A stretch of 23,235 bases of DNA, from IMG/VR virus record IMGVR_UViG_3300026321_000021, positions 1-23,235 of that record. The stretch is one strand, 5' to 3'. Made by a program: the position numbers and the translations under genes. This DNA comes from a virus. Under the pieces are notes generated by a model. The model saw only the letters and a program-made list of their open reading frames with translations. It was not told the origin of the DNA and did no database searches. Shown piece by piece: positions 4,608-23,235 of this stretch (the stretch's first letter is position 1; each line of letters opens with the position of its first letter).

Positions 4608-5534
4608 TTAGATCGTCAAATCAGTAGTAGAACCAACAGAACCAAACGGATTAGTCTCAGAGAAATCAATGATATCGTTATCGGAAGTCTCGAAATCGTA
4701 GTTCTGGTCGTATTCTGATGTAGTATTATTTATGGTGTTGTATGAAGCAGTTGTCCAGGATGCACTTGATGTACCACCTGTAACGGTTTCAGGCACTTGG
4801 AAAGTACCAGACCTGTTGATAACAATGAGAGTGCGTGAAGCATTATCCCAAGACTTAACTTCAGCAGTAACATTAGATGTTCCACCAGTAACAGTCTCAC
4901 CAACAGTGAATTCACCAGACCCACCTGCTACGAGACCAACCGTTATTGCGTTAGCAAAGGCAGTCTCTATAGCATCGATCTCAGCAATACCAGTATCAAT
5001 CTGCTCATCAGCATACTGGAAGAGCTCACACTGACATTCCCAAACGTATCCTTTTCCTAGTTGGTAGAATGGTTTCTCCACTTCTACAAACTGTATTTCA
5101 AATAAATGCTTTGTTGTAGGGAAGTATATTAAATCTCCCTCGTTGGGACGACCTTCGACATTAAGGACCGCATTGTCGTCAACTTTCTCTTTAAACTTGG
5201 TACGGGAGAATATAAACGTCGTTTTATCTTCGACACGTACTCCGAATTTGCTAAGTAATTCGCCTTGTCCTTCCCATCCTTCAACGTTATTGACGTAGGC
5301 TCGGATGGAGAGAGCATTTCCAAAACTGCTGTTATCAACTTCATCTAATATAGTGTCCCGATTAATGTATGTCCTAGGTAGATAATACAGGTTTTGACCA
5401 TAAATTTCAATAGTCTCAACTATAAGATTTTCTATAAATCCCTGCTCCTGTGCAGAACCATTAAGGTTAACCCGACATGCACTTGTATAATCGGATTGCA
5501 CACATGCTTTTGCTGGTGAATTACTGTATGCCAT
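4608..5534 (-). CDS. 14: Neck protein (gp14), with inserted beta module
   Basis: A head-completion neck protein that forms the collar with gp13 after packaging. It has 308 residues. The core matches T4-like gp14: EQGFIENLIVETIEIYGQNL (30-49), YYLPRTYINRD (50-60), AYVNNVEGWEGQGELLSKFG (79-98), FIFSRTKF, and GDLIYFPTTKHLFEIQFVE (133-151). Residues about 206-262 hold two GETVTGGTS-type motifs around KSWDNASRTLIVINRSGTF, not present in T4 gp14. The C-terminus NDIIDFSETNPFGSVGS then resumes the cyanophage gp14 pattern, so the module is an insertion and not a tail addition. It starts one base after the gp13 stop (TAATATG). Confidence 0.92.
   Translation of the reverse strand: MAYSNSPAKACVQSDYTSACRVNLNGSAQEQGFIENLIVETIEIYGQNLYYLPRTYINRDTILDEVDNSSFGNALSIRAYVNNVEGWEGQGELLSKFGVRVEDKTTFIFSRTKFKEKVDDNAVLNVEGRPNEGDLIYFPTTKHLFEIQFVEVEKPFYQLGKGYVWECQCELFQYADEQIDTGIAEIDAIETAFANAITVGLVAGGSGEFTVGETVTGGTSNVTAEVKSWDNASRTLIVINRSGTFQVPETVTGGTSSASWTTASYNTINNTTSEYDQNYDFETSDNDIIDFSETNPFGSVGSTTDLTI
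4727..4734 (-). promoter_or_regulatory. Possible late promoter inside gp14
   Basis: Minus-strand CATAAATA, one base from TATAAATA, inside the last quarter of gp14 and about 120 bases before the gp15 start. It matches the NATAAATA form that I recall being described for cyanomyovirus late promoters. The distance is longer than for the other candidates, so this one is weaker. Confidence 0.3.
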
Positions 5535-5535
5535 A

Positions 5536-6342
5536 TTAGCCTACTAGATCCATTGGTGGTAATTCATAACGATCTCGTAATTCAGTTTCAAGATCAACCT
5601 TGAATTTAGCAGCATCTTCTAAGATCTGCCTACCATTGAGTGTTACACCACCCAACATCTGAATACCGTCATACTTACTTAGGTTCCTTCCCCACTGTTG
5701 TTGGAATAATGCCTCAACATAATCCTTTAACCAGTTGTCATTAAAGACATCTGTAAAGGTTGTGGGGTCTTGACGCATCTTCATATCAACCATGATGTAA
5801 TCACCTACTTGAAGGTTTGCCCAATCAAAGTCAAGTGTCAATCTGTTGTTATGCTCATTCCATCTAACCCTTCTATTTGCGTTAGAGTTAGTAACCCAAT
5901 CTAATGTTTCAAGATATTGGGATGTCATAAAGTAATGTAATATCTGTCCATGAGTCATGGCATAGATATCATTCAAGAAAATCTGATATTTGATATTAAA
6001 AATATTTCCAGGTACAACGCTAGATGCTCCAATACCTGTAAAGACTTGATTAATACCTAGGGTTCCAGGAGGTGTCGATATATAATTGTCTTGACCCCAC
6101 CATGCAGTAGACCCTTCTTGTGTCCAGTCAGTTGCAGCAGTCTTAATTGCTTCAGTAACTTCTACTCTCATGAAAACATCATAGCTTCCATTGTAGTGAT
6201 ACTCTTGATAATAATCGATTGCTTCTTCTACTAAGTCATCCAATTGCTCATCACACACGTTAATGTCAATCGCAGGATAACCCAGTCTGCGAAGTGCATA
6301 CAGTTTTAGCTCTGCTTTAGTAGCTGGTCTCGTAGCGGTCAT
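5536..6342 (-). CDS. 13: Neck protein (gp13)
   Basis: A 268-residue head-completion protein that attaches to the packaged head and works with gp14 to receive the tail (T4 gp13 is 309 residues). Features: N-terminal KAELKLYALRRLGYPAIDIN (9-28), a helix LDDLVEEAIDYYQEYHYNGS (34-53) typical of T4-like gp13, YQIFLNDIYAMTHGQILHYF, then NEHNNRLTLDFDW (about 162-174), and a C-terminus of LKDYVEALFQQQWGRNLSKY and ILEDAAKFKVDLETELRDRY. It begins seven bases after the giant fibre gene with no visible Shine-Dalgarno, and is followed one base later by gp14. No insert module is seen here, unlike in gp14 and gp15. Confidence 0.92.
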   Translation of the reverse strand: MTATRPATKAELKLYALRRLGYPAIDINVCDEQLDDLVEEAIDYYQEYHYNGSYDVFMRVEVTEAIKTAATDWTQEGSTAWWGQDNYISTPPGTLGINQVFTGIGASSVVPGNIFNIKYQIFLNDIYAMTHGQILHYFMTSQYLETLDWVTNSNANRRVRWNEHNNRLTLDFDWANLQVGDYIMVDMKMRQDPTTFTDVFNDNWLKDYVEALFQQQWGRNLSKYDGIQMLGGVTLNGRQILEDAAKFKVDLETELRDRYELPPMDLVG

Positions 6343-6348
6343 TTGTTA

Positions 6349-9300
6349 TTAAGCGAATGAGGAGATAGTCAAGTTAGTTACATCATTAGCACCAACGGTC
6401 TCTCCAACTTTGAAGAATCCATCTACATTATCAACGGTAACGGAAGTAGCACCAAGAGCAGTGATGACTGCTGTTGATCCAGATGTGCTTCCTGTTACAG
6501 TCGCTCCAACTTCCATCGTTGTGATGTCAGAAAGTGCGAAGGTTGCATTAACGAATACGGTAGCAACGTCAATCGTTGCGCCATTTCCATGTATAGCAGA
6601 AACTGGGATTGTTGCTGCACCATTACCACCTGTAATAGTTATAACTTCGGATGCTGCATAACCAGATCCATCGTTATTGATACTAACAGCAGTAACTGCT
6701 CCAGCATTTGTGGTGATATCAACTGTCAATCCCGTGCCTGATCCAGAGGATGTTGTAGCAACGGCGGTTGCGTTAATGTATGTGGCACCAGCAGCACTAA
6801 TAGTTCCAAGAGTCTTAACTCCAGATGCATTAGCGTTAGCAATGGTAACTGTGTTTCCAGCAGCGTATCCAGTACCAGCAGTGTTAACTGTGACTCCTGT
6901 GATACCTCCAGAGGATGCTGTGATATCAACTGTAAGACTGGATCCATCTCCACCAGTGGCAGCGATGTTAGTTCCAGATGCATATCCTGTGCCAGCAGTC
7001 AATGTTGCGCCGTTAACGGTCTTAACACCTCCAGCAGCAGCGTTTGCTATCGTTAGGGTATCTCCAACTAGGTAATCGCTTCCAGCGGCATTCAAGGCGA
7101 TTGCAGTGATGACTCCGCCACTTGTAGTAGTATTAACTGTTAAACCACTACCTGTGCCACCTGTAGTTGCGACTCCAGTGCCGTTAGAGAATCCTCCAAC
7201 ACCATTGTTGGTGATAGCTCCAAGGGTTACAACGGAACCAGGAGTTGGGTCTCCAGATAGATTTAAGACTAGGGTTGTAGCAGTAGCAAGGTTATTCAAC
7301 ATTGCACTAAGTTGTGCGTATGCATTGTCAAGTTTTGCTTGGACTCTTGCTTCTGTGTAGTAAAGATTTGTGCCTTCTGATAGAGCAGCAGTATTATGGT
7401 TGCTTAGGTTTGCTGCCTGAGTAGCAGTAGCAGGTGTAATATTCGCTGTGCCATCGAAAGATGTGCCACCGATTGTCCTTGCTGTAGCAAGAGCAGTAGC
7501 AGTTGCAGCAAGTCCTACAGCGATGTTAGCAGATCCATCAAAGGATGTACCACCGATCGTTCTGGCGGTTGCTAGTTTCGTTGCATCTGCTGCTAATGTT
7601 GCATTTGATGCTGTGCCTGTTACATTACCTGTAACGTTACCAACTACTGCACCAGTAAACTGAGTAGCAGTAATGATTCCTGAACTTGGGTTATATGTAA
7701 GACCTGTGTCTGAATCTATAGTCTCAGATCCAGTTGCAGCATCAGCAAATACCAAGTAATGAGTAGCGTCTGTGCTGTTGTTTGCCCATATTTGTACTCT
7801 TGTTGCTGTAGTACAAGTATCAGCATTACCTGTAAGATCTCCAGTGATGTCTCCAGCAAATCCAGTAGCAGTAAGGATGCCAGTATTTGAATTGAATGTT
7901 AAGTTTGTGCCACTCTTAGGTGCAAGGTTGCCAGTTGCAGCAGTTGCAAAGAGGACATTACATGAGGTGTCTGTTGACTCATCAGCAACGGTTACTGTTG
8001 TTGCTACGTCAGCAGTACCAGTTAGGTTACCTGTAACGTTACCAGTCAGTGCCGCTGTTATTGTGCCAGCAGCAAAGTTTCCTGATCCGTCACGTAAGAC
8101 TAGGTTGCTTGCAGAGTTACTACTTGCAGAAGCAACGTTGATTGTTGTAGCACCTGATACTCCATCAGCATTGGTAAGAGTAACACCAGAGTTAGCTGTA
8201 ACAGCAAATGTGCGTTGAGCATAAGTGTTTGCAGCAGTCCTTACAACGTATCCTGTGCCAGACATACCTGCTAGAGCAGTGATATCAGCATCAACGAATG
8301 CTGTAGTGATACTTACATCAGCAGATCCGTTAAAGGATACTGTGCCAGAAACTGCACCAGCGACTGCGATATTTCGTGCAGTAGCAAGTGTTGTTGCTGT
8401 AGATGCATTACCTGTTAGTGCAGCAGTGATTGTACCAGCAGCAAAGTTACCAGAGGAATCTCTGTTAACGACTGTAGATACAGTGTTTGCAGTGGCAGTT
8501 GTCATGCCATCTAACAAGTCTGCGTTAAGATTATTAATTTTGTCTGTTGTAGGAATGACAAGAGCAGGTCCAGATCCAACTTGAGATATGATCTGTCCGT
8601 CTACCGTTGCAGTTCCATCAACGTTAAGGTTATTGTCTACATCTAATGAGGTGCCAGCTCCAGTTACATGGACTGATCCGATTCTTAAAGCACCGTCTGT
8701 GCCAGCCATTACTTCAGCGGTATTAGTACCACCAGTAAGCATACAGAATTCTAAGGTTGATCTATCGAGTCCGAAGAAACCAATTTTCGCTGAGCTGTCG
8801 TAATAACGGAATTCAACACCACGATCTTTAGCATCGTTGGATGAGGGTGCCGTGTCACCTCCCAAAGTAATAATAGGGTCATCGAGAGTAGTGACCGTGC
8901 TGTTAACTGTAGTTGTGTTTCCATTTACTACTAAGTCCCCTCCGACTGTAAGGTCATTGTGGAATTCACCATCGCCTGTAGCGTTAGTAACAGTAAATGC
9001 TGCACGTGTATTACCTGCATCATATACTACGAAGTTTCCACCAACGTATGTATTCTTATCAATTGTTGCACCACCAGCAACTTGAAGAGCAACTGAAGCA
9101 TCTGCAAGAGATGTTGCTTCATCAGCGTTACTGACTACTAAATTACCTGATATATCTGCACTGCTGTTAAGGTCTAAACTACCTGTCAACTCTGTATTGC
9201 CGTAGACTCGTGCCCCGCCACCAACTGCTAAGTTTTTCGCTAAACCAATACCACCAGAGAATCTTCCAGCACCATCAGCAGCGTATGATCCTGTGAGGGT

Positions 9301-12300
9301 TTGCTCTGTGTTTGCCGTTGCTGTTATTACACCCGAAACACCGAATGTATCATTGATTTGAGTCGCATCACCAACGGTGAGTGTGCCAATAATGTTAGTG
9401 TTACCGTTGTCAGTATCAACTTCAAACTTAGTAACAGGACTACCAGCCCCATTCTGGATCGTAAATGTTTCATTAGCAGCATTAACTTTTAGGGTATCGA
9501 TTACTTGTGTCTCACCCTGTACTACTAGAGTACCTGCTATAGCAGTATTACCATTATCGGTATCTACTGTAAACTTATCTACTGCACCAGCAGTCTGGAC
9601 TTTAAATAATTTGTTGTCTGATTTAACAATCAGATCGTCTTGGATAGTTGTTGCACCATCAACGTTAAGTGTGGTGTCAAAATCAACTGCTCCTTTAATG
9701 TTTAAATCTCCTTCACCTACTGCATTACCAGTAGAAGAAGCAACAGTAAACTTATCTGTTGTGCTATTACGGACTGCGAAGTTGCCATCAACATCTACAG
9801 TTCCATTAAATTCTGCGTTACCGTTTTGGGTTAATACACCTTCAGATGTAATATTACCAGTAGCACCTAGGACACTAAACTTAACTGTGTCTCCAGAGTT
9901 TTTCTTACCAACGAATAAACCTTCGCCAGATCCAGTACCACCAACGTGCCAGTTAGTAGCAACTCCTCCACCACCATATACTCTTAGGTTAGAAGTATTA
10001 TGTGTAGCATAGGTTGGAGTATAAGCAACACTACTACCAGCTCTGACTTTATATCTTACCTGCAACCAGTTCCGTAAACCCCAACTCTCTGTTCCACTAT
10101 CTCTCTGGTTAAAGTCTCCGTTTAGATAGAGGTCACCATTGAATAGGACATCCTTAGCGAAGTAACCACCACCATCATTTCTTAAAGCACCATAGTCAGA
10201 ACTCTGGATTTCATATAAATCTGTGCCACCATTTAGTGCAATGTTAGGCTCATCAGTAGATTCAAAGTGGACTAGATCAGCAACGTTTAATTTACCTTCA
10301 CCATTAGCATCACCATTATCTGTATCGATTGTAAACTTGTCTGCACCAGCAGCAGTTTGAACTTTGAAGAACTTATTGTCTGCTTTAATGATAGTATCAT
10401 TAGATATCGTTGTAACCCCTGCTATAGCAGTGTTACCAGATGATGCTGTAATATTAAACTTATTACTATTAACGTTAACGTTACCAGTAACAGCAAGGAT
10501 ACCCTCCATAGTGAGGTTACCAGATGTAGTTACAGCAGTAATCTTAGCGTTGTTACTACCATCCTTAAGTATGAAATTCTTAGAAGCACCCTTAATTACT
10601 ACTTCATCAGTGAAGAGTGATGTGCCTGTGACACCTAAGTTAGTGTCGATATCAACTGATCCACCAATATTAACAGCACCTGTAATTCCAACACCACCAG
10701 CAACTACCAAGTCTCCAGTAGTATTAGTAGTAGATGCTGTGCCTGTTGTAAGTTTTAAGTTACCAGCGATGATCCCTGCATCTGTTCCAGAGAATACCTC
10801 TGAGGTATTTGTGGCATTGTAGAGGAATGAGAATGATCCTGTATGGCCTCCAAGATCAGCGGCCGAATCGTCGTAACCAAAGAATCCAATTCTTGCTGAA
10901 CTGTCGTAATATCTGAATTCAACTCCTCGATCCTTATTGTCGTCCGATGAAGGAGCAGTATCACCACCAAGAGTGATGATAGGGTCATCCAGAGTAGTGA
11001 CTGCTGAATTAATTGTTGTAGTCGTGCCATCTACTTGTAAGTCTCCATGTATTCTACATGTTCCAGAAACTGCTCTATCATCACCTGGGTCTAGGTGTAA
11101 TGTTGCTCCAGTAGATCCAATGTAGTCTGCTTGGAATTTAGATCCCTCAACAGTAACTTTACCATTGGTTGCTTCTGAGGCAGTTATAATAACTGCATCT
11201 TCTGCTGTAATATTAACTGTGCTTGACCCAGATCCTGAGTTAGTAGCAGTAAGACTTACAGCTCTTGCAGATGAAGAGTTTTGTGTAGATGTAAATGTAA
11301 GGTTTCCGTCACCAGTCTTGGCTAAAGTTTGTGCAACCCCTCCGTCGAGGGTAATGTCTGGATCACTGAAATATGATCTGACGTTGACATCAATCTCTCC
11401 AGCACCACCATCACCCGTATTATTTGCGCTAAACAGTAGAGCACCACTTGTGTTATTAACCTTGACATAATTAAGTTTATTAAATCCTTTATATGCTGTA
11501 GCAGCAGTTAATTCGCTATCTAATGCAAAGTCTTCTTTCGCGTTTGTATCAGAGAAGGATATTTTATTGTTTTGGAGTTGAGTATTATCAACAGCAGCAC
11601 TAGCGATGCTAACATGACCTGCCGCAGATACATCAAAGTCCTCTTGTGCAAAGGATGCGAGTCCTTTCTGTTGTGTAGTAACTGCACCGAGATATCGCCA
11701 TGATCCGCTATCTGAACTATCTGAATGAGTAGGCGCACCAGCTCCAGCACTAATCCCTCCAATGGCCTGATAAAGCTTCGACGCATTAGTGATCTTATCA
11801 TCTCTGGAATAGGTCGTTCCTGCATTGTATGCTGCTGCTGTAGTACCTTCTACTGCTGTAGCAATCGGAGCATCAACAGATGCTGTTAGTCTACCATAAG
11901 TATCAACCGTAAAGGTGGTTGTGTTAACTGTCTGTGACCCAGCTACTGATGTAAGTGATGCAGTGTTGTATGCAGCAGCAGTTACAGCAGTTGATATTAA
12001 GTCAATGGTAGGGTTACCTGAGAGTCCACCACCATCATTTATTTGAATTCTTGCGGCAGTACCAGTAATAGTTCTGGTTGCCATTGTGCCAGCAGAAGTC
12101 CTGGAAAGTAATCCAGTCGTCGTCAGGTTTGCAATTGCAATTAGATCGTTATCATATGGTTGAGCAGAAGCACCTTCTACGGTACCATTCAATCCATATG
12201 CTGCTAGAGTTGTTGGGTTTGAAGCATTTGTAATTCTACCTTTAGCATCTACAGTAACTTTTGTATAGGTACCTGTAGGTGTTGCTGTGCCATCGTAATG

Positions 12301-12687: not shown

Positions 12688-12720
12688 TTTTAGAGCAACA
12701 CTAGTACTATGCTTCCAAGT

Positions 12721-12728
12721 TATTTATG
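12721..12728 (-). promoter_or_regulatory. Late promoter of the giant fibre gene
   Basis: Minus-strand CATAAATA, one base from the T4 late element TATAAATA. It lies in the short non-coding gap between an intrinsic terminator and the fibre ATG at 12687. Location in non-coding DNA, spacing of about 34 bases to the start, and the terminator directly before it make this the best promoter candidate in the window. Confidence 0.65.
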
Positions 12729-12732
12729 CCAC

Positions 12733-12755
12733 AAAAAAGGGGGAATTATTCCCCC
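12733..12755 (-). terminator. Intrinsic terminator overlapping a stop codon
   Basis: On the minus strand GGGGGAATAATTCCCCC forms a seven-base-pair stem with a three-base loop, followed by TTTTTT. The loop TAA is the stop codon of the 80-residue gene, and the 5' arm encodes its last residues. It should end transcripts coming from gp8 and the DUF4815 gene before the fibre promoter. Confidence 0.85.
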
Positions 12756-12988
12756 GTTGTCAATTCGTCTACTGTGTCAGTGATTTCAGGCTCTTCTGGT
12801 TTCTCTATAAAGTAGTCCAGAGTCTCTAATGCACCTTGTAGTTTGAGGGCTGTGATCTCGTTTTCTTTAATTTTAGCAGCCAGTTTTTTATTTTCTTCAA
12901 TCAGATCAGTGTATCTGGTTTGAAACTGTGACTGCATATCCTCTTGGGAAACCTTTTCAGGTGCTCCTGTTGCTGGATTTGTTGTCAT
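12746..12988 (-). CDS. Small coiled-coil protein, unknown function
   Basis: An 80-residue protein. Residues about 15-55 (MQSQFQTRYTDLIEENKKLA, then KIKENEITALKLQGALETLD) have strong heptad character and should form a coiled coil. The tail is acidic (EKPEEPEITDTVDELTTGE). Its ATG overlaps the stop of the preceding small gene (ATGA), so the two are co-translated. The stop codon lies in the loop of a terminator, so this is the last gene of the transcript. Between two giant virion genes it may be an assembly chaperone or a trimerisation partner for a fibre; this is inferred from position only. Confidence 0.75.
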   Translation of the reverse strand: MTTNPATGAPEKVSQEDMQSQFQTRYTDLIEENKKLAAKIKENEITALKLQGALETLDYFIEKPEEPEITDTVDELTTGE

Positions 12989-13209
12989 GATTGTGATTTA
13001 GCTAACGTTAGTAAAAGTGTTTTAATTTCACTCAACTCAGATTTTACATCAGAAACTTCATTTTGTAAAGTCTCCATTTGCATTTCTTTAGCTTTCTCAG
13101 ATTTTATGCCAGCCATGTACTTGGAGTATGCTGACGTATCTGCACAATCAACGGATCCTGATGTTGAGTCTTTAAACCATCCATCTAGATCCTTCACTGG
13201 TTGTCTCAT
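12985..13209 (-). CDS. Small protein with C-terminal coiled coil, unknown function
   Basis: A 74-residue protein. The N-terminal half (VKDLDGWFKDSTSGSVDCAD, then TSAYSKYMAGIKSEKAKE) looks like a compact conserved segment. The C-terminal half (METLQNEVSDVKSELSEIKT, then LLLTLAKSQS) is a clear coiled coil with leucine, valine and isoleucine at heptad positions. Its ATG shares one base with the stop of the DUF4815 gene (TAATG), and its stop overlaps the next ATG by four bases. The two neighbouring coiled-coil proteins may bind each other or a giant virion protein. I do not recognise the family. Confidence 0.75.
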   Translation of the reverse strand: MRQPVKDLDGWFKDSTSGSVDCADTSAYSKYMAGIKSEKAKEMQMETLQNEVSDVKSELSEIKTLLLTLAKSQS

Positions 13210-16200
13210 TAGATTGCTAAGGCGATTGCTCTAAGGTCTTTGATTACTGGACTATATGCTTGGTTAGGTGAAGCATATACTACCTTAATCTGATATTGAT
13301 CGAAACTTAAACCAGAAACCTCGTATTCGTAATCCCTAAACACATAGTTGTCAACCGTATCAGGTATCGAAGCATTGGTTGTTGGGAAGAATTCAAATCC
13401 AAACATGTCGATTGGATCAGTGTTTCCAGTTGGTCTGACTCTATATAGGACGCTAATTGTAGACCCTGTTGGACGGTAACCCGCAAACATAAGTTTGATA
13501 GATCCTGAAGAGTTTGTTAGAGTTGCTGCTCTTGTAATATAACAAGCAGAGTGCTCATCGCCAATGGCAGATTTAGCACTATTAATATTGGTAGGACTAT
13601 TAATCCTGTTTGATACTAATATAGAGGACATCCTATCTGTATCAACAATAGGTGATACATTGGTTGCTGTAGTCGTAAGAGTTAAATCTAATCTTAAAGA
13701 CTTCTCACCACTCAATTCTTCAGACTCATTGATGTGTGAGCAAACAAGTTTTGGTCTAATCAGTTTGTTGTCATCATTCAAGAGGACATTGATGAATGTA
13801 CCATCGTTTGCAAACGATCCAGATAATCCTGTAGCACCATCATTGATTGATGTACCATTGATTGTATTGATTCTTGCTGTGATTTCAGTCTTAGGAAGAA
13901 TCATTCTCTGTATCTGAGGAATAATTGTCTCATACTGTAGGTTCTGAGTGGCTTTTGCATTTGCTCCACCACCTCTAATGCCTATATCAGCGAGAGATGT
14001 AACCGCAATTTCGTAGGTATCCAATGTAGGATTAGCAATTGCAGCGTGTGTTTTATTCAATTCTGTTAGTGGGATACCATCAAGGTTGTAGCATTTAACA
14101 ACTGTCTCATCAGCGTGTGATATCGCAGTAGTGCCACCTTGTGCTCTTGCCTGTACGGTAATTGTCTTACCATCATTTGAAATTGCATTATAAGATATAA
14201 CCTCAGTGCCTATCTGGAGATATGCAACGTTGGATGCACTGATTGCTACACCGTTAATAATCTTGTGGAATGCACTAGCATCATTAACAGTAATAGATGT
14301 ATCTGTGTTAGATATCGCAGCAGTTAAATATGTATCACTAACTTCAGATATTAAACCTGATAGTGTTACGTTGTTTGCCACGTCATGCATAGCATGATTG
14401 GTATGATAAACTTTGATTATCCGTTGGTCGGATGTATATGTTGGTGTGACGTTAGGATATGAATCCGATATTGCAGCAGATTCTACAGCGTCACCAGCTG
14501 GAGTGAAGACGTTAACAGTAGCAGTCTTACCAGATGTGCCACCTGTTATAACTTCACTTGAGTTAGTAAAGTCGTCAGAAACAGATGTTAATGCGAATGT
14601 TGCAGCACCACCACCATTGTCTGTCCAAGTGCCTACAACAGCAGTTGGAGCACCAGAAGTGTTACCAGTAATGGTTTCTCCAACAGTGAATGCACCAGAT
14701 GCACCAGTCACTGTCATTGCACCAGTTGTCTTAGAAGATACTAGACGGTTAGTAACGTTACCACCAGCAGCAGATCCTTGTGCAAATGTACCACTTAAGT
14801 TATCAAGTGTTATACCTACACCACCTGCTAAGACTTCTACCTTAGTAATGGTACCTTCTGCAAGGGTTGTCTTCTGATAAACTCTAGCACCAACCGTATA
14901 TGGTAGTGTTGTAGAGTTAAGTACTAAACGTATTTGTGGTTGCTTAGTTTCTATTGGATCTCTTCTTAGTGCCAATACACCTCTATTACCAACGCCTAAC
15001 TTAGCGTTGTTGAGGACAATCTTACTTGTGCCAGTGTTATCAAACGCTGCTCTGTAGATAGAGAATTTAAGATCCTCGTATTGGTCAGCAGTCCATGTAG
15101 ATGCGTTTTGTGACTTGAATAAGACACCAGCATATGGCTGCTCAGATATTGTACGATCTCCAGTAATATCCAATTCACCCATTCGTGATATCCAAACCTG
15201 ATAGGAGTTGGAGTCAGAGAGCAATACGAAACAATGCTCTTGTGATTGAGGGATATAAACTGGTGCTCTGAATGTAAACTTGGTGGCAACAGCACCAACT
15301 TCTGATAACTGAATGTCATCAGGATTGAGTGTTATATCAGAGAATGGAAGAATAGTTTTTGTAGGATAACCATTCTGCATAGTCCTTATCTGCATAGAGA
15401 TAGGAATATTGGTATCCTTTGCGTTGAAGAAAACATCAACAGAGGTAAGGAATACACCACCTTCTTCGTCACATATAAATGACTGAGCAAGAGGGTCATA
15501 CCAACCAATCTGTCTTGTTTCTGTCCTAGTTGTCTCAAGGACTCTATCATCAGTTACAGTATCACGGACGATATCAGCATTTCTTACAGCAAGAATATTC
15601 TCTTGGACTGTATTCAATGTACCTGATGCTTGATATTCAGTCTCAGCAGATGAGTCTACCCGACCTGCAAGTCTGCTATCTACATCAGATGTAGTAAATC
15701 TTAGTGTCCTAGTGCCTACTGCCCAACGTGGGTTAGTATCTACACTTGGATTTGGAATAAAGAATGAACCAGAGAATTGACCTAAGCGATCAGAAAGGAT
15801 CCTTCTATCCTTAACAACTGCTTTAGCACCTGATGCACCTGTGAGAATTTCACCAGTGACCATGTTTCCATAGTATTCACCAACTGCTTGCTCTGCAAGA
15901 GAGGTAATATCTACGTTTAGATATGCAGTAGTTGATGCATATGAGGTAGCAAGCTCTGTATCATCATAAGGATTGTACTTAAAGTAGTCATTAGGTGCAG
16001 CAACTTTAAATGTTACACCACTTGTATCTCCAGTAACTGTCTCTCCAATAACAAATGGAGTTGAGTTTGTCCTAGCATCAATTGCTGGATCTTTAATCAA
16101 CTCAATAACTTTAGGCATGATGTAGTCGTTGGTTGCCTGACCATCAAAGAATGAGAAGAAGGTTGTCCTAGGCTTCATACGGACAACATTCATAGCAATG

Positions 16201-19200
16201 TTTCTTGATCTTATCCAAGGAATTTGGACGCTGGATAGAAGCACATCTCCTTGAGAGATTCTATCAATTCTAGGTGTAATCCTAGTCCTGATACCACTTC
16301 TTGTCTGTCCTTGGTTAACTCTAATCGTAGTAACTCTGTTGATACGACGCATACCACGACCATTCCAAACTTGAGGGTTTGGTGATCTTCCGATGTCCTC
16401 TTCTAACCAGAAAGAGTTTCTTTGCTCTTGAGATGAAATAACTTCTGCATCACCTGTCCAGTTGGTTCTCCATGAACCCCACTCGATAGGAGCAAATCCG
16501 TTTTGGTCAAGATTCAATTCCGATGCAGTCTGCTGGAAGTCACCCTCTGTAGGGATAACTCTATCAGGTAGACGATCAACATCGAGCCAGTCATCAGATG
16601 CTGGTGTTAAATCAATACGACCAATATAAGTGAATACGTTAAATGGGTTTACGTTCTCAACCCTAGAAGCATAAGGCTGGTCTACAATCTTAAACTCAGT
16701 GTATGGAAGTGATAGTAGTGGACCTGTCTGCCTATAATTTGTAGATAATCCTGTGTTGATTATCATCGCAACGTTAGTTGTATAATGAGCTGCTCTACAT
16801 GTGCCTTCTCTGAAGTCTATAGCAGCACCGAAATCTTGATGTGATGTATCAGACTTACTATGGTCTGTAAAATCATCAACAATAAATCCGTTTTTGAAAC
16901 GATCTTTACCAGTAGCATCTACAATAGTAGTGTTAAAGGTATCACTCTCAAGCATGTTGAGAGAAGTATAATACTCAATCTGATCTAACCTACGCTCAAG
17001 AGCACCAATGTCTCTCATGGTGAAACGTTTGTTATCAGATCTCTTAATTATTGTGTCTCCATCATCACCGAAACCATATGGTCTATGCTTAAGAGTTGCT
17101 AAATGCATACCATCCTTAAGACCGTCTGGCTCTTGCGGAGTCTGAGCAGAGTTACCTTTTATAATCTGGAACTGACCATTAGGAGTGATGTATAACTTAT
17201 CAGTCCTAGGTAGATACCAGTCAAAGTCACAACGGAAGTCGCTGTCTAACTTAGGTATATCAAAGATAGTAGAGTTTGTTGACCCACCAATAGTGAATAC
17301 TCTTGACTTAAAGTCAAAGGTGGAGCAGTTAACATATGCAGGAGTAGAAATTGTACCTGTCCCGCTATAAAGATTCTTAGCACCAGGTCTCCAATCTAGC
17401 ACGTCTGCTAAGAATGCTGTCTTGTAGAATGGAATATCCTTGTATGCTGTATTGAGGTAAGACTGACCTGCAAAATAATCACCTGTTGAGGAGTGAGCAT
17501 AGTAGTCTACAATAAATTTAACTTGGCGAATTGGTTTTGTTGCACCCTTCTTACGTACAATTCTGGATGTGTCATAAATGAATCCTGTCTGACTATCCTC
17601 AAGGAAGTAATTAGAAGTAATAACTTTAGATCCTTGGACAACAGATGAAGCACCGTCGTTAATAATACCAGTGATTGCTGTGCCAGCACTATCGAAACCA
17701 TTTAAAGTTTCACCTGGTACAAACTGTGCGTCACTAAGGTAAACAAGACTTAGTTTCAAACTTGCAGATGCAAATTCAACAACCTTTGCTCTTGCTAAGG
17801 AAGTCCTTCCTGTTACAATTGTGCCAACAGCAAAGAATATTGGCTCAACCAATATTACATTAGGTACAACAGGCTCACTGTCATCTAGTGATTCATATAC
17901 AGCATGTAATCTGAATGCATCAACTAAACCTAGTGATAGATCTTGGTCTTCAATTCTAGTTCCATAAAGAGTGGAGAATGCCAATCCATACTGAGGCTTG
18001 TCAAGGGATCTAATAGTCTTATTAGCCTTGATAACAAACATCTCATTCTCAGATTTTGTCTTCTTAGTAGTTACGTTCTTAGAGATTGTAGCAGTAACCT
18101 TAACAACAGTAATATTTGTTAGGTTGGCAATCTGTAAGGTAGTCCTATCAGATGTAGTGAATGTGCAATAACCTACACCACTACTTGTAGTCGTATTAAT
18201 AGCAAGTTGATCACCAGCAGGATATGTGCCGTTTGTGCTTGTTAGTACTGTAATATTATAATGCTCTTGGTCAAGAGAAACAAACTGCTCATTCTCAGGT
18301 AGAGTTATAGAGACAGAGTTTGAAGCAACTGTTTGTGCATCAAATGTCCTTCTAATAATAGATGATTCGTCAGAAATACTCTTAACATACTTTCTAGGCA
18401 TTGGGCTGAATAGATCAGCATTATCAAGACCTTGTAATTTACCACGATATCTTACTAATGTTCCATACTCACCAGCAGCAGGAGCAGCACCACCAGCACC
18501 AGGAGTTACATTAACTGTCTGGGCGGTATAACTGAATATGCTTGCCATACCAGTAGTATTCAAACTACCTGGAGTAACATAATCAACGTCAACATACTTA
18601 ACTGAGCTAAAGTAAATTCTATCGCCAGGACGTAAGTCAATAGCAAAGTTAGAGTTTAAACCAGTAATCTTCTCAGAACTACCAGTAGCATCATAAGTGA
18701 ATGAGTCACCTTCAAGACGTAATACATCTTCTAGTATTAAGTCTGAAGTGAATTCAACTGCATTTGTACTCTCATCTCTTGAAAGGATCTGACGAGTATC
18801 AGAATACTTGTAAGTATGAGTATCAGCAATAGTATCAACATTCTCACCGTTAAGAAGAATCATTTCCGATTTGGCAAATGTTCCTTCTACTTGATATACA
18901 ATCCAATCATCATTAGATGATACTGTATTAACAATATAACCTCTTGCGCCAGATGTGGCACCTACAATTATTGATCCCTGATCAATAGATTTTGCAGAAG
19001 CTAAAGTAATCAAAGTAAACATCTGTACATCAAAGATGTTTAACTTATATTTGTCATCAGCATTACCGAAAGTCTGGTCTGGATCCTCGATGTGCTCAAT
19101 AGCAGCAGTACGAGCATATCCAATAAGGTTACCTACTTGATCACCAGCAGTTGCAGTAAATGTGTCTCTTAATTCTAATACCTGATATGAGTTAGATACT

Positions 19201-20435
19201 GTAGAACCTGTAAGGTTGGGGAAACCAAACATGTTGTTAACTCTACACCAGTTGCCCATTTCAAATGGGATAATCTTGTTTTCTACTTTGTCTGTATCTC
19301 TTGGCTTCTCTAAGTCAACATAAGTTGGTGATAGAGTCTTAAGTCTATATCCTTTAACGTATGCAAGACCTGGACCAATCTCTACAGAGTAGAGTGCTTC
19401 TGAAGCAGTTGCACCACTAGAGGTAGTACCACCAGATTGATAAACACCATTGTTAAATCCGTCAGAGAGGTTTTCTCTCATACCGATTTGGAAATCTTTA
19501 ACAACGTAATTACCAGACTCTTCAAAAGTCCTTGTTGCTAGTGACTTCTCAAGCTCAGCATATGTAGATCTGTCTACAATCTTTTCGACTTTAGCTGAGT
19601 TAACACGAAGCAGTTCAATGAAGTCCTTATCTGCGTCGTCTGTAAGAAGTTTCTTATTTAATTTTGTGGTTATTCGGAACCTGTGAGCACCAGGAGCAGC
19701 ATAGTTAGATGTGCCAGCTGCGTTATCATTAAGGGATAAGTCATCTTCTGGGGTGATGATGGATTCTTGGATGTCAAGTCCAACTCGGTATGAAGGGGTG
19801 CTTCCATATTGATCAAGGAGAATATATTGATAAGGTACATCTACAAAGAAACCTCTTATGTAGTATACACCTGTTTGGACATAAGCAACACTACCAATTT
19901 GTAATGCAGCAGTAGGAAGTAACTGTGCAAATGGTGATCCAATCTCAATAAGAGTGGTACCAAATGTTATTTCCTTTTCTGTTATTAACTGCTCATTGTT
20001 TGAGAATGTGCCTTGGTCATTCTTTGTACCACCTGATTCGATATACTTAACATAAACTGTAATATATCCTTTGTCTGAATCGGTAGCTGAAATACTGTAT
20101 AATACTTTTGCTCTAACACCAGATGTTAAACCTTCTATAATTAAACCGTTTAACTGTGTTCTATAATTTTCTACTTCTGCTCCCAAGAAACTTTCCTGAA
20201 GCATAATACAATGCAAATTCAGGTCATAACCAACCTGACCAGGAATGACCATCGCACCATCTTTGAAAAGATGTGATCCGACACTTTCTATCTGATTCTG
20301 TAAGATAGACTGCCCCGTCGTAAGCTCTCTAGCTTGTATAGGAAACCCAGGACGATATAAGACTCGATAAAAGTTTTTAGTTTTATCAAAGTCGTCATAG
20401 TACGGAGTGACGTTTAGATTGGTGTTCTGTGCCAT
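13209..20435 (-). CDS. Giant DUF4815-type virion protein (baseplate or tail-fibre associated)
   Basis: A 2408-residue structural protein. The N-terminus (TPYYDDFDKTKNFYRVLYRP at about 10-29, then GFPIQARELTTGQSILQNQI and FKDGAMVIPGQ) matches the DUF4815 domain of cyanophage and other phage tail proteins. Its place directly after gp8 corresponds to T4 genes 9-12, so a baseplate or fibre-anchor role is likely; I infer it. The GExVTGxTSGxxAxV-type motif occurs at least six times (about residues 96-112, 482-528, 865-930, 1462-1483, 1522-1545 and 1915-1975). A TDTSITVNDASAF and IGTEVISY module (about 2030-2110) resembles the gp15 extension. The C-terminus (FGFEFFPTT, YEYEVSGLSFDQYQIKVVYA) is a beta domain. 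It starts one base after the gp8 stop (TAAGATG), with no Shine-Dalgarno. Confidence 0.88.
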   Translation of the reverse strand: MAQNTNLNVTPYYDDFDKTKNFYRVLYRPGFPIQARELTTGQSILQNQIESVGSHLFKDGAMVIPGQVGYDLNLHCIMLQESFLGAEVENYRTQLNGLIIEGLTSGVRAKVLYSISATDSDKGYITVYVKYIESGGTKNDQGTFSNNEQLITEKEITFGTTLIEIGSPFAQLLPTAALQIGSVAYVQTGVYYIRGFFVDVPYQYILLDQYGSTPSYRVGLDIQESIITPEDDLSLNDNAAGTSNYAAPGAHRFRITTKLNKKLLTDDADKDFIELLRVNSAKVEKIVDRSTYAELEKSLATRTFEESGNYVVKDFQIGMRENLSDGFNNGVYQSGGTTSSGATASEALYSVEIGPGLAYVKGYRLKTLSPTYVDLEKPRDTDKVENKIIPFEMGNWCRVNNMFGFPNLTGSTVSNSYQVLELRDTFTATAGDQVGNLIGYARTAAIEHIEDPDQTFGNADDKYKLNIFDVQMFTLITLASAKSIDQGSIIVGATSGARGYIVNTVSSNDDWIVYQVEGTFAKSEMILLNGENVDTIADTHTYKYSDTRQILSRDESTNAVEFTSDLILEDVLRLEGDSFTYDATGSSEKITGLNSNFAIDLRPGDRIYFSSVKYVDVDYVTPGSLNTTGMASIFSYTAQTVNVTPGAGGAAPAAGEYGTLVRYRGKLQGLDNADLFSPMPRKYVKSISDESSIIRRTFDAQTVASNSVSITLPENEQFVSLDQEHYNITVLTSTNGTYPAGDQLAINTTTSSGVGYCTFTTSDRTTLQIANLTNITVVKVTATISKNVTTKKTKSENEMFVIKANKTIRSLDKPQYGLAFSTLYGTRIEDQDLSLGLVDAFRLHAVYESLDDSEPVVPNVILVEPIFFAVGTIVTGRTSLARAKVVEFASASLKLSLVYLSDAQFVPGETLNGFDSAGTAITGIINDGASSVVQGSKVITSNYFLEDSQTGFIYDTSRIVRKKGATKPIRQVKFIVDYYAHSSTGDYFAGQSYLNTAYKDIPFYKTAFLADVLDWRPGAKNLYSGTGTISTPAYVNCSTFDFKSRVFTIGGSTNSTIFDIPKLDSDFRCDFDWYLPRTDKLYITPNGQFQIIKGNSAQTPQEPDGLKDGMHLATLKHRPYGFGDDGDTIIKRSDNKRFTMRDIGALERRLDQIEYYTSLNMLESDTFNTTIVDATGKDRFKNGFIVDDFTDHSKSDTSHQDFGAAIDFREGTCRAAHYTTNVAMIINTGLSTNYRQTGPLLSLPYTEFKIVDQPYASRVENVNPFNVFTYIGRIDLTPASDDWLDVDRLPDRVIPTEGDFQQTASELNLDQNGFAPIEWGSWRTNWTGDAEVISSQEQRNSFWLEEDIGRSPNPQVWNGRGMRRINRVTTIRVNQGQTRSGIRTRITPRIDRISQGDVLLSSVQIPWIRSRNIAMNVVRMKPRTTFFSFFDGQATNDYIMPKVIELIKDPAIDARTNSTPFVIGETVTGDTSGVTFKVAAPNDYFKYNPYDDTELATSYASTTAYLNVDITSLAEQAVGEYYGNMVTGEILTGASGAKAVVKDRRILSDRLGQFSGSFFIPNPSVDTNPRWAVGTRTLRFTTSDVDSRLAGRVDSSAETEYQASGTLNTVQENILAVRNADIVRDTVTDDRVLETTRTETRQIGWYDPLAQSFICDEEGGVFLTSVDVFFNAKDTNIPISMQIRTMQNGYPTKTILPFSDITLNPDDIQLSEVGAVATKFTFRAPVYIPQSQEHCFVLLSDSNSYQVWISRMGELDITGDRTISEQPYAGVLFKSQNASTWTADQYEDLKFSIYRAAFDNTGTSKIVLNNAKLGVGNRGVLALRRDPIETKQPQIRLVLNSTTLPYTVGARVYQKTTLAEGTITKVEVLAGGVGITLDNLSGTFAQGSAAGGNVTNRLVSSKTTGAMTVTGASGAFTVGETITGNTSGAPTAVVGTWTDNGGGAATFALTSVSDDFTNSSEVITGGTSGKTATVNVFTPAGDAVESAAISDSYPNVTPTYTSDQRIIKVYHTNHAMHDVANNVTLSGLISEVSDTYLTAAISNTDTSITVNDASAFHKIINGVAISASNVAYLQIGTEVISYNAISNDGKTITVQARAQGGTTAISHADETVVKCYNLDGIPLTELNKTHAAIANPTLDTYEIAVTSLADIGIRGGGANAKATQNLQYETIIPQIQRMILPKTEITARINTINGTSINDGATGLSGSFANDGTFINVLLNDDNKLIRPKLVCSHINESEELSGEKSLRLDLTLTTTATNVSPIVDTDRMSSILVSNRINSPTNINSAKSAIGDEHSACYITRAATLTNSSGSIKLMFAGYRPTGSTISVLYRVRPTGNTDPIDMFGFEFFPTTNASIPDTVDNYVFRDYEYEVSGLSFDQYQIKVVYASPNQAYSPVIKDLRAIALAI

Positions 20436-20436
20436 C

Positions 20437-21969
20437 TTAGAATTCTATTACGATTTTAATGTCTTCGATTTGGTCGTTCGCACGACTAATGGATCTCCTG
20501 TTATCAATGTAGATAATTTGACCGTCATTAGATTTAATCTCAGGTTTTGCATACCCGTTATTAAACTTCATACCCAAGTCATATTCAGTATTGTTGATGG
20601 TCCGTGAGGAGGAATTAGGGACGGCTGGGAAGTTAACATCAGGAGCACCTGCTGCACCACTTGTCGCACCACTAATTACGTTAGATCCATCAAATTCATT
20701 AAGAGTACCAGTAACCTCTGGATGGATTCCATCCACTGAGTTCTGGTAATATTTCAAAACTTTTGTAGTAGCATTCCAGGAAACAACTCTACCACGTGCA
20801 GTAACGTTAGTACCTCCCACCACTCTTGTTTGAGTGACAATTTCATCAGGGACGTAGTTACCTTGGAAGGTAGGAGAGAAGATAACTGCTTTAGCTGCCG
20901 ATACTGTTAGGTCAGCAAGCAATTCTGTTGTGCCAAACTTTAGGGGGTTTGTGATAAGACCGATTCTTCTATAGTCATTATCAACAGGGAAATCGCCAGC
21001 ACCCTCATCATAGGAGAGTTTAGCGTTAATCATTACTCTAAATGCACCCATTTCGATGACTGGATCGTATCCATGTCCACTTGGAGGAGGAATGATAACA
21101 TCCACTTGACCACCTGTACCAGTACCAATACCAGTAATATTCCCAATAGAAATTTTACCAAAGGTATAACCAGTACCACCGCTAGTAACAGTAGCAGAGA
21201 TAATGCGACCACCGTCAACGACGATTGAAACACGACCACCAGTGCCATCGCCATTAATAGCAACGTTATCATAAGTTCCATTGTTGTATCCAGCACCTGC
21301 GGCATTAATTACGACTGTATCAATCTCACCAGCAACAGCGTTAGTCTTGACTGCATCGTTAGTGAAAACGGGCATGTAGTCATTCGAGAAGAATTTTAGG
21401 ACACTAGCAACAGGTATAGTATAAAGATACTTCCAACGATAGCTATCGGCGGTAGTGATAATACTTGTTGACGTGCCAGTTGGCTCAACTGTTGAAGGTT
21501 TACCATTAGGGTCTGAGGGTGATGTGCCGTTGTATATGCACTTATAACATTGATACTGTGAGTTTACGACATAAAAGTCTGAGTCATATAACTTCGTTGC
21601 ACCTGAAGATGCAGTCTTACTTGGTGAGTAATCGTGACGATACATGTCATAGGTAAAACCTAGACCACCAGTAGTTTGCTCAGGGGATACCCAGTCGATA
21701 CGACGAACCACTTGAACCGTGTCGGCAGCTAATACACGTTTCAGTGAAATCATATCATCATAGGATGACGAAAATTCCAAGAAGGAGTCTACTGCTTGCG
21801 GAGGTGAGTTTTCATCATCCCAAGCTTGGGGTCTACCTATAAAGATATAAACCCGGTCTCTCGTTGCTCCTGCATCTGCGTCACTCTGTGTCGATATTGG
21901 ACCTTCGAGTGCTTTAATGAATTTTTGAGCAGAAAAGATTCTAAATTGATCTGTTAATAACGCTGCCAT
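20437..21969 (-). CDS. 8: Baseplate wedge protein (gp8), enlarged
   Basis: A baseplate wedge subunit, 510 residues against 334 in T4 gp8. Shared landmarks in order: YIFIGRPQAWDDENSPPQAV (41-60; T4 FITFGRSEPW), VVRRIDW (87-93; T4 RRDW), ADSYRWKYLYTIP (174-186; T4 GDGYVWEYLFEIP), YRRIGLITNPL (333-343; T4 FRQISIITNPL) and the C-terminal GQIIYIDNRRSISRANDQIE (483-502; T4 MENRPPIIMAMDQTEE). Two insertions explain the extra length: glycine-rich GxGY repeats at about 212-300, and a GExVTG-like segment (GRVVSWNATTKVLKYY, then NVISGATSGAAG) at about 370-442. A candidate late promoter lies about 30 bases upstream, just after the previous gene. Confidence 0.93.
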   Translation of the reverse strand: MAALLTDQFRIFSAQKFIKALEGPISTQSDADAGATRDRVYIFIGRPQAWDDENSPPQAVDSFLEFSSSYDDMISLKRVLAADTVQVVRRIDWVSPEQTTGGLGFTYDMYRHDYSPSKTASSGATKLYDSDFYVVNSQYQCYKCIYNGTSPSDPNGKPSTVEPTGTSTSIITTADSYRWKYLYTIPVASVLKFFSNDYMPVFTNDAVKTNAVAGEIDTVVINAAGAGYNNGTYDNVAINGDGTGGRVSIVVDGGRIISATVTSGGTGYTFGKISIGNITGIGTGTGGQVDVIIPPPSGHGYDPVIEMGAFRVMINAKLSYDEGAGDFPVDNDYRRIGLITNPLKFGTTELLADLTVSAAKAVIFSPTFQGNYVPDEIVTQTRVVGGTNVTARGRVVSWNATTKVLKYYQNSVDGIHPEVTGTLNEFDGSNVISGATSGAAGAPDVNFPAVPNSSSRTINNTEYDLGMKFNNGYAKPEIKSNDGQIIYIDNRRSISRANDQIEDIKIVIEF

Positions 21970-21998
21970 TTAACTATAGGTACTTTATGTCCTTTGTC

Positions 21999-22006
21999 TA
22001 TTTATC
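21999..22006 (-). promoter_or_regulatory. Late promoter before gp8
   Basis: Minus-strand GATAAATA, one base from TATAAATA, in the 41-base gap between the gp7-like stop and the gp8 ATG at 21969. It is the only non-coding gap in this part of the baseplate operon. The spacing of about 30 bases to the start is like that of the fibre promoter. Confidence 0.6.
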
Positions 22007-22010
22007 AAGG

Positions 22011-23235
22011 TTACTGAGTCCTTGCTATTGTTTGGAACTCGATGCTCTTAATTCGATAAGAAGCACCACCGTTTCCGACCAGTTTTTCACCACCTAAAAT
22101 TGCCTGTGCGACTGCACCAGCTCCAGTGGTATCACCTGATGCATTAGTGAATGTGACTGTTGGATGGATATTATATGTACCATCAACTGTCTGTGGAATT
22201 CCATATCCACCATTAGTTATAGTGATAGAACCAACTTGGTCTCCAGCAGCCGTCAAGACTACTGTGCCAGTTGCTTGTATGTCTCCAGTATTCTCTACTG
22301 CAACAGTCGGCACTAACGAATAGTTAGTACCTGCATTTTGAATATTGAAATCTACGATAGTGCTAGTATCTGAGAATTTATACAGATAACCAGCAACACC
22401 TATATTTACATTACCAGTATTAAATGGAATTATATCACCAACCACTAATTTACCTGTGCTTGGGTTCCATGACACCACAGTGCCTTTAACCCCAGATACA
22501 TCACCAGTCACCACTTCATTAACTGCATAGTTTTGTCCATTACCAAAGTTACCATCAACGGTAATCTCCATCAATGCTGCATGAGGTACACCCTCACTCA
22601 AAGCACCAGCAGTAGTAATAGTTGCATACTTGAATGGTATGTCAGCATCCTTAATGCTGTCACCTGCTTGGAATAGAGTTGTGTTTGTGCCACCTTGAGT
22701 TTCCTCAATACCATATAGAGAATCGAATCTACCACCCTCTAAGTTGATCTGGTTAACATACTCAGTGCCTGTATTTACAAGATCGGGAATACCGTCTCCT
22801 GCACCAGAGTTTTCATCATCGTCTTCAAATTTCTTGTTTAATATCTGCGAAATAGGTACTGTTAATGTAACAATGTTGTCACCAGTTGAGTTTACCAACA
22901 CGTGTGGTTGGAATGAGGAGTTGGCAGAATCGGCAACTCCTGCATCAAACTGGACAATTGCATCTTCTGTAGATGGAAGACCACCATCAATGAATGCTAG
23001 TTCATCAACTTCAAATGCTACCAGTAATTCTCTTGTCTGATTATTCCAGTCATAAACCTTTGCTATCTTGTTAGCAGCATTTTCAACCCTTCTAATTACT
23101 CGGTCACCAACGTTAAACTTATAATTGGATGTGCCGTCTTGGGCATTCTGTCCAGAATCAAGAATAACACGTTGATCATAGTTGAAATTAAGACCTCTTG
23201 TTACATTACTAAACTTCTCTCTTGATTTGGAAGAG
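22011..23235 (-). CDS. Baseplate wedge gp7/VrlC-like protein, C-terminal 407 residues, cut by window edge
   Basis: The frame is open from the window edge (position 23234) to the stop at 22011, so the start lies outside; an internal GTG at 22901 is not the true start. Visible segments include GLNFNYDQRVILDSGQNAQD, NYKFNVGDRVIRRVENAANK and VYDWNNQTRELLVAFEVDEL, and the C-terminus SYRIKSIEFQTIARTQ. The position directly before gp8 is that of T4 gene 7; cyanomyoviruses carry a VrlC-like baseplate protein at this place. The C-terminal 200 residues hold a GExVTG-type module (VNEVVTGDVSGVKGTVVSWN, at about 22430-22535) and two GxGY-type repeats (about 22100-22350). The assignment rests mainly on gene order. 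Confidence 0.65.
   Translation of the reverse strand, partial: SSKSREKFSNVTRGLNFNYDQRVILDSGQNAQDGTSNYKFNVGDRVIRRVENAANKIAKVYDWNNQTRELLVAFEVDELAFIDGGLPSTEDAIVQFDAGVADSANSSFQPHVLVNSTGDNIVTLTVPISQILNKKFEDDDENSGAGDGIPDLVNTGTEYVNQINLEGGRFDSLYGIEETQGGTNTTLFQAGDSIKDADIPFKYATITTAGALSEGVPHAALMEITVDGNFGNGQNYAVNEVVTGDVSGVKGTVVSWNPSTGKLVVGDIIPFNTGNVNIGVAGYLYKFSDTSTIVDFNIQNAGTNYSLVPTVAVENTGDIQATGTVVLTAAGDQVGSITITNGGYGIPQTVDGTYNIHPTVTFTNASGDTTGAGAVAQAILGGEKLVGNGGASYRIKSIEFQTIARTQ

Follow-up and report, generated by a model that had tools for sequence, protein, structure and literature searches.

The question raised by the virus record IMGVR_UViG_3300026321_000021 (23,235 bases, analysed over its whole length and referred to below as 'the window') is whether one short beta module recurs in several different proteins of the same virion and, if so, whether it moves between them or belongs to each of them as a settled part. 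The minus strand of the window bears a structural gene cluster of cyanomyovirus type, encoding the C-terminus of a gp7-like protein, gp8, a DUF4815 protein of 2408 residues, a fibre of 2112 residues (with Mtd_N at its start), gp13, gp14 and gp15; the top matches of its gp8 and gp14 are Synechococcus and Prochlorococcus phages. An earlier note on this DNA had claimed that a single module (here termed 'module A') recurs in five of these virion proteins and that it looks mobile. The recurrence is borne out by the profile searches described below, and the mobility is not.

The kinship of the copies was judged with 'family-only' profiles, one for each of eight positions, built from orthologues in fetched loci and searched against the 14 proteins of the window together with 714 decoys (50 shuffles and the reversal of each protein). 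All eight matched at least one copy in another protein with a score above that of every decoy, the best decoy of each profile reaching 3.8-7.6 bits, and the copies are thereby linked above background, the check that the earlier note had proposed. The profile of DUF4815 residues 1880-2000 found gp14 at 48.8 bits, the fibre C-terminus at 21.9 and gp7 at 18.1, while that of gp7 found gp14 at 39.2 bits and gp8 at 9.7; the profile of DUF4815 residues 862-936 reached gp14 (21.9 bits), gp7 (17.5), gp8 (10.1) and the fibre (9.4), that of residues 478-540 the fibre (20.6) and gp14 (15.2), and that of gp14 itself gp7 (21.4), the DUF4815 protein (12.5) and gp8 (10.0). The other three were narrower in reach: DUF4815 residues 1452-1540 led to gp14 only (9.4 bits), gp8 to gp7 only (8.9 bits) and the fibre to two DUF4815 copies only (10.4 and 6.6 bits). 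The weakest links are those of gp8 and the fibre, with gp8 tied in at 8.9-10.1 bits through four profiles and through none of the rest. A first gp14-only profile, made from near orthologues, had placed gp8 level with 294 decoys (E 0.019, best decoy 0.023) and had not found the fibre; broader orthologue sets then connected both to module A. PHROG profiles display the same cross-talk, the gp14 module matching the gp7-like family phrog_708 and two fibre families.

A combined module A profile, which was partly trained on copies from the window, serves for mapping those copies, the test being left to the family-only profiles. The copies are as follows; bits refer to the combined profile (best decoy 6.8) unless another profile is named.

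4752..4925, minus strand: module A in gp14, residues 204-261 (69.1 bits; AlphaFold2 block means of 83-93 over residues 201-260).
20647..20871, minus strand: module A in gp8, residues 367-441 (49.8 bits; 9.7-10.1 bits with the gp14, gp7 and DUF4815 862-936 family profiles; AlphaFold2 model).
22329..22544, minus strand: module A in the gp7-like protein, residues 231-302, core about 231-275 (38.0 bits; 17.5-21.4 bits with the gp14, DUF4815 862-936 and DUF4815 1880-2000 profiles).
23013..23126, minus strand: weaker module A-like stretch in the gp7-like protein, residues 37-74 (8.9 bits with the DUF4815 1880-2000 profile, best decoy 6.7).
19974..20147, minus strand: module A in the DUF4815 protein, residues 97-154 (28.2 bits).
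18828..18983, minus strand: module A in the DUF4815 protein, residues 485-536 (41.9 bits; its family profile finds the fibre copy at 20.6).
17673..17840, minus strand: module A in the DUF4815 protein, residues 866-921 (49.5 bits).
15990..16073, minus strand: N-terminal half only of module A in the DUF4815 protein, residues 1455-1482 (30.0 bits; gp7 profile 17.2).
15807..15869, minus strand: marginal half module A in the DUF4815 protein, residues 1523-1543 (8.6 bits, best decoy 6.8).
14775..14915, minus strand: divergent module A in the DUF4815 protein, residues 1841-1887 (13.6 bits).
14517..14705, minus strand: module A in the DUF4815 protein, residues 1911-1973 (29.8 bits; the 1880-2000 profile finds gp14 at 48.8).
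6364..6531, minus strand: module A at the fibre C-terminus, residues 2053-2108 (38.7 bits; DUF4815 profiles 9.4, 20.6 and 21.9).

The DUF4815 protein, for which at least six copies had been claimed, thus holds six mapped copies and a marginal seventh. The unit of module A is about 57 residues long and carries a GEx(V/I)xG hairpin at either end, so that the strings previously listed in pairs in gp14 and in gp8 are the halves of a single unit in each protein (204-261 and 367-441, respectively). In an alignment of 300 rows, equivalent to about 84 effective sequences, the informative columns include F5, G8, I/V11, G13, S16, A18, G/A20, V22, L32, V34, F41, G44, E45 and I/L47, that is, core hydrophobic residues and turns and, besides these, a single Glu and a single Ser, within a sequence rich in Gly, Thr, Ser and Val. 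Alignments with T4 place module A between T4-homologous segments in both gp14 and gp8, in agreement with the claim that it interrupts such sequence there.

Existing family models do not account for the module. None of its ten copies in the window scores above a curated Pfam cut-off, the gp7 copy bearing a weak likeness to DUF2187 (18.4 bits, cut-off 24.7) and KOW2_Spt5 (12.5 bits, cut-off 28.9) and the fibre copy a weak likeness, also below cut-off, to IPT and DUF6486. Among 27 members of the module from elsewhere, no Pfam family matches more than two (best E 0.0037), and the immunoglobulin-like (Ig-like) families yield one weak Ig_ZP2 match there (E 0.0095) and none among the ten copies of the window. 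A sequence search of the PDB with the module alignment returned nothing (best E 0.2).

The fold was predicted for two of the host proteins. AlphaFold2 models of the window gp14 with 53 orthologues were poor overall (mean predicted local distance difference test, pLDDT, 54.6; predicted template modelling score, pTM, 0.37), with the module, at residues 201-260, as the sole stretch with block means above 70 and with six strands; gp8 with 55 orthologues reached a mean pLDDT of 75.8. Five of the six strands of the gp14 module were found again in gp8 with their order kept (by eye), the sixth being short in gp8. The top structural matches of both modules are barrels, which does not speak against an Ig-like fold: residues 491-559 of 8rk3_b, from the JBD30 baseplate, match the gp14 module (Z 5.7, 62 residues aligned, 2.3 Å) and residues 494-559 the gp8 module (Z 4.7, 63 aligned, 2.0 Å), and domain 3 of aIF2-gamma is matched by both (Z up to 5.9 for gp14 and 3.7 for gp8). 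The core of gp8 keeps the fold of T4 gp8 (1n7z, Z 16.3, 262 aligned), the modules being extra parts. As modelled, module A is probably a small, six-stranded beta barrel with an internal two-hairpin pseudo-repeat. The proposed comparison of predicted folds has given a similar strand order and the same solved barrels, matched at modest Z, and the notion of a common fold present as an extra domain holds for gp14 and gp8 by model, and for the other proteins by sequence profile.

A scan of ten whole phage genomes (eight cyanophages, one pelagiphage and T4) with the module A profile produced 73 matches, spread over nine of the ten genomes, with none in T4. Each match was placed by hand in the annotation tables: 70 of the 73 fall within genes whose names are baseplate, neck or head closure, tail fibre, virion structural, structural, VrlC or Virulence Associated protein, and the remaining three within P-SSM2 genes named hypothetical, two in PSSM2_113 (positioned after gp8, like the DUF4815 protein) and one in PSSM2_118 of the structural cluster. 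As for actual presence in particles, gp14 is among the 41 proteins detected in the virion proteome of S-SM1, as given in an excerpt of PMC3037559.

Whether the copies of module A move was judged from their nearest neighbours in fetched stretches of 42-50 kb from nine named genomes and the window. These contained 68 copies, of which five labelled 'other' and six with fewer than 30 comparable columns were left out, giving 57 (with no fibre-labelled copy); with the HMMER filters off, 74 copies were found, eight of them labelled 'other', and 60 were used, adding three fibre copies. The nearest neighbour was the same protein in another genome for 51 of the 57 copies, and for 53 of the 60 with filters off, 'same protein' here meaning best BLAST match, which in the multi-copy DUF4815 protein is not necessarily the same copy. 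Mean identity across proteins was 0.217 within a genome and 0.219 between genomes (0.223 in both cases with filters off), and no pair within a genome exceeded 50% identity in either run. Copies of module A thus group by protein and not by genome, those of one genome are no closer to each other than to their positional homologues, and there is no sign that copies have spread recently within genomes, an idea that was rejected accordingly. Variation in the presence of module A at its site is limited to a deeper contrast, HTVC008M and T4 having a gp14 without it.

Mobility shows instead in two further shared modules, B and C, which the earlier note had not mentioned. Profile comparison among A, B and C gave no link above column-shuffled controls, and T4 alignments place the modules outside the conserved core in gp14, gp8 and gp15. 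Module B is Gly-rich, of the GGTGYTxAPTVTI type, and is found in gp8 and, as an array of three units, in the fibre; a gp8-only profile found the fibre at 17.2 and 17.0 bits (best decoy 10.1), with two of the three units above all decoys, and a fibre-only profile found gp8 at 14.5 bits (best decoy 8.0). For module C, a gp15-only profile found the DUF4815 protein at 26.4 bits (best decoy 6.8), and a DUF4815-only profile did not find gp15. Their positions in the window are as follows.

21088..21360, minus strand: module B in gp8, profile match at residues 204-269 and structural match at 217-294 (68.7 bits, best decoy 11.9; T4 gp18 match at Z 6.1).
6658..7245, minus strand: three units of module B in the fibre, residues 1815-2010 (37.9, 56.3 and 68.1 bits, best decoy 11.9).
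22128..22325, minus strand: possible, unconfirmed module B in the gp7-like protein, residues 304-369 (46.0 bits with a combined profile seeded with that stretch).
14079..14318, minus strand: module C in the DUF4815 protein, residues 2040-2119 (74.7 bits, best decoy 5.3; gp15-only profile 26.4).
3689..3904, minus strand: module C in gp15, residues 235-306 (72.4 bits; at about residues 225-232 of T4 gp15, and without counterpart in some relatives).
23115..23231, minus strand: possible end of a module C, truncated at the edge of the window, in residues 2-40 of the gp7-like protein (combined profile 20.3 bits, best decoy 5.3).

The gp7-like stretch 304-369 was first counted as module B; neither the gp8-only nor the fibre-only profile detects it, and a profile built from it matches no other protein. 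The possible module C end in the same protein is likewise missed by the gp15-only and DUF4815-only profiles, its sole basis being the combined profile. An apparent trace of module B at query residues 22-25, where nearly all of the 60 listed rows start, was dropped; S-TIM4 shows it though its gp14 is about 310 residues long and aligns in one piece.

Variable presence at one site between relatives was found for both of these modules. Module C is present in gp15 of the window and of loci L006 and L039 and is missing, with clean ends, from that of L035, L040, L041 and L056. A module B-type stretch of about 82 residues lies within module A of the Syn9 and S-CAM8 gp14 (read directly), at the turn that reads TSN in the window, and such a turn may be a safe insertion site for another module. 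Ten of 146 DUF4815 open reading frames (ORFs) of at least 1000 residues, many of them cut by contig or locus ends, contain module B, as three units in L105, L110, L112 and L123 and as one in L085, L100, L103, L116 and L124, all starting at residues 579-633; S-PM2 has one unit at a different place, and the DUF4815 protein of the window has none at the 579-633 site. The array in the DUF4815 gene of L105 (12285-13053) shares 70.4% and 70.3% DNA identity over 710 bases with the fibre genes of L061 and L021, and 69.5% over 750 bases with the same site of L110, which is to say that the fibre genes are as close to it as its own positional counterpart. The simplest reading of these sequences is that module B arrays have been exchanged between fibre and DUF4815 genes. 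Pairs across proteins with more than 50% identity number 381 for module B (including ORFs labelled 'other') and none for module C. Judged from such comparisons, module A looks like an old, stable add-on, and B and C look like parts that come and go between relatives.

The placement of two of these modules suggests what they may do. Residues 178-256 of T4 gp14 are described, in an excerpt of a preprint (PMC12270204), as disordered in the isolated neck and as contacting residues 203-245 of gp15 in the virion. The cyanophage module A corresponds, in a loose alignment, to about residues 207-245 of T4 gp14, and module C to about residues 225-232 of T4 gp15, so that each side of a single joint would have received a module. 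In the 154 loci that contain both genes (the window gp15 lying at 3572-4606), module C was present in gp15 in 68 of the 72 with a gp14 bearing A only, vs six of the 79 with a gp14 bearing B; one 'AA' gp14 (S-PM2) and two module-free gp14s (HTVC008M and T4) went without C. Most of these loci are the best matches of two queries, with two clades dominating, phylogeny uncontrolled, and L001 and L002 being the window itself, and the apparent avoidance of B in gp14 and C in gp15 is accordingly a lead, not a result. An extension of this pattern would make A, B and C an interchangeable joint kit, in which gp14-A/B faces gp15-C at the head-tail joint, lineages fill that joint differently (with A and C, or with A and B but no C), and the kit tunes the fit of neck and tail or offers one partner a common docking surface on neck, baseplate and fibre; we regard this as distinctly improbable. 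The gp14-gp15 placement nevertheless leads to a concrete question, namely whether accessory domains tune the head-tail joint.

We consider it reasonably probable that module A is an accessory structural domain, a small barrel that T4-like marine phages have added, at sites that permit it, to five or more of their virion-type proteins: the neck protein gp14, the baseplate proteins gp7-like and gp8, the DUF4815 protein and the fibre. Such domains would be non-catalytic structural add-ons, acting as spacers, extra contact surface or joint reinforcement, and gp14-A and gp15-C, lying in the segments that form the T4 gp14-gp15 contact, would probably widen or adjust the head-tail joint. We infer this structural function because conservation falls on the core and the turns, besides a single Glu and a single Ser, leaving no conserved surface patch, because copies of A group by protein, and because of the placement at the joint. 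Several observations weigh against it. Module C in gp15 is dispensable, being missing from four of the 72 loci with an A-only gp14; the structural matches, at Z 3.7-5.9, are modest and in a range common for such barrels; the gp14 model is poor outside the module, so that it does not show how the module is oriented on the neck; gp3, gp6, gp13, gp18-gp20, gp23 and one tail fibre of S-SM2, like gp18 and gp19 of P-SSM2 and HTVC008M, contain no A, B or C above decoys; and among P-SSM2-like phages the gp14 module is less conserved than the core (mean identity 0.627 vs 0.802).

The modules might alternatively be weak glycan- or surface-binding domains that hold particles close to the cell, a role proposed for Ig-like domains. 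Module A also occurs in fibre and baseplate genes, and B in the fibre and gp8, which would suit such a role, but the conserved positions described above offer little else than core and turns, and one copy resides in the neck protein gp14, which in T4 lies away from the cell-contacting end; we hold this to be unlikely, even though an adhesion hypothesis for Ig-like sheath domains is related in an excerpt of PMC9230969. Neutral accretion, in which small stable barrels are tolerated at exposed loops with no shared function, would fit the finding that C is either cleanly there or cleanly missing in gp15 of phages with a gp14 79-92% identical to that of the window, and the B arrays of zero, one or three units near one DUF4815 site. 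That account has low probability as well, given that copies of A group by protein across the genomes compared and that, in the window's group, module A of gp14 is as conserved as the core (0.900 vs 0.894). Convergence, in which beta proteins rich in Gly, Thr and Val resemble one another and the motif is a matter of composition, can appeal to the make-up of the module; shuffled and reversed decoys of the same composition nonetheless fall short of the cross-protein scores, and profile comparison does not align A with B or C, whose make-up is similar, so that this possibility is already disfavoured and highly improbable.

A separate proposal, compatible with an accessory structural domain, concerns its origin: module A may derive from a barrel already in T4-type virions (gp7 at about 760-851, or a sheath domain) that was copied outward in the cyanophage lineage. 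The gp14 module matches residues 760-851 of chain BJ in 5iv5 (VIA: Z 7.7, 83 aligned, 4.1 Å), BJ being taken as gp7 by its length, and hhalign of module profile A6 with a six-sequence alignment of T4-like gp7 pointed to the same region, but at P 0.068. Against 103 windows of T4 proteins, A6 ranked gp18 106-149 first (P 0.00096) and placed the gp7 windows at 771-788 low in the order (P 0.35 and 0.74), and with a larger module profile no T4 link stood out (best P 0.039, 103 windows); the sequence links to T4 gp7 and gp18 thus shift with the version of the profile. Since T4 had no match in the genome scan and the window gp7 has no BLAST similarity to T4 gp7, this origin is possible but doubtful.

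Cyanophage structural genes are annotated by similarity, and models of A, B and C would help to correct their names. In MbCM1 (L167, 28957-36186 and 43846-44772), the protein at the DUF4815 position is named 'gp14 neck protein', and its gp14 is placed in cluster T4-GC 399, that of the P-SSM4 gp7-like protein; in HTVC008M, the protein at the gp7 position is named 'head closure Hc2' (L340, 1436-4486). A shared domain lacking a model probably explains some of these conflicting names, its causal role being our own surmise. Downstream of the structural genes, the window also contains a plastocyanin-like ORF (1669-2052, by eye), at a place similar to that of the annotated PetE gene in Syn9 and S-CAM8, and, between this ORF and the gp15 end of the cluster, a DUF7243 protein (2591-3127; Pfam E 9.7e-72).

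Among solved structures, domain 3 barrels of EF-Tu and aIF2-gamma match the fold (both for the gp14 module, aIF2-gamma for that of gp8), with about 3-13% identity and no functional relation, the barrel arrangement being a common one. Beyond its own core, the gp14 module finds its best structural match in T4 gp7 at about 760-851, with no significant sequence link. Residues 99-187 of the T4 gp18 sheath, which we take to be domain I, are a structural match of module B from gp8 (VIA, 3fo8, Z 6.1, 73 aligned, 2.6 Å; in the range of common arrangements), but the module B profile scores T4 gp18 below the best decoy (5.7 vs 10.6 bits), and no module B was found above decoys in the sheaths of S-SM2, P-SSM2 and HTVC008M. 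The additional sheath domains of T4 are, in an excerpt of PMC9230969, supposed to be nonessential for sheath formation.

The sharing of accessory domains among virion proteins is itself a described phenomenon, according to excerpts of PMC10684548 and PMC9230969, so that the 'undescribed module-sharing system' suggested earlier is undescribed in so far as the module has no Pfam model. Searches on module A or the cyanophage proteins that carry it, judged by titles and the opening lines of abstracts, turned up no paper describing the module; the domain family appears to be unnamed, and its kind already known. Like the Ig-like and other promiscuous accessory domains of tailed-phage virions (in those same two sources), the modules are small, lie outside the conserved core, are shared between functional classes and vary in presence. 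Module A differs from those domains in having no Pfam model, in its predicted small barrel, in its occurrence beyond fibres, in gp14 of the neck and gp8 of the baseplate, and in copies that are grouped by protein rather than by genome.

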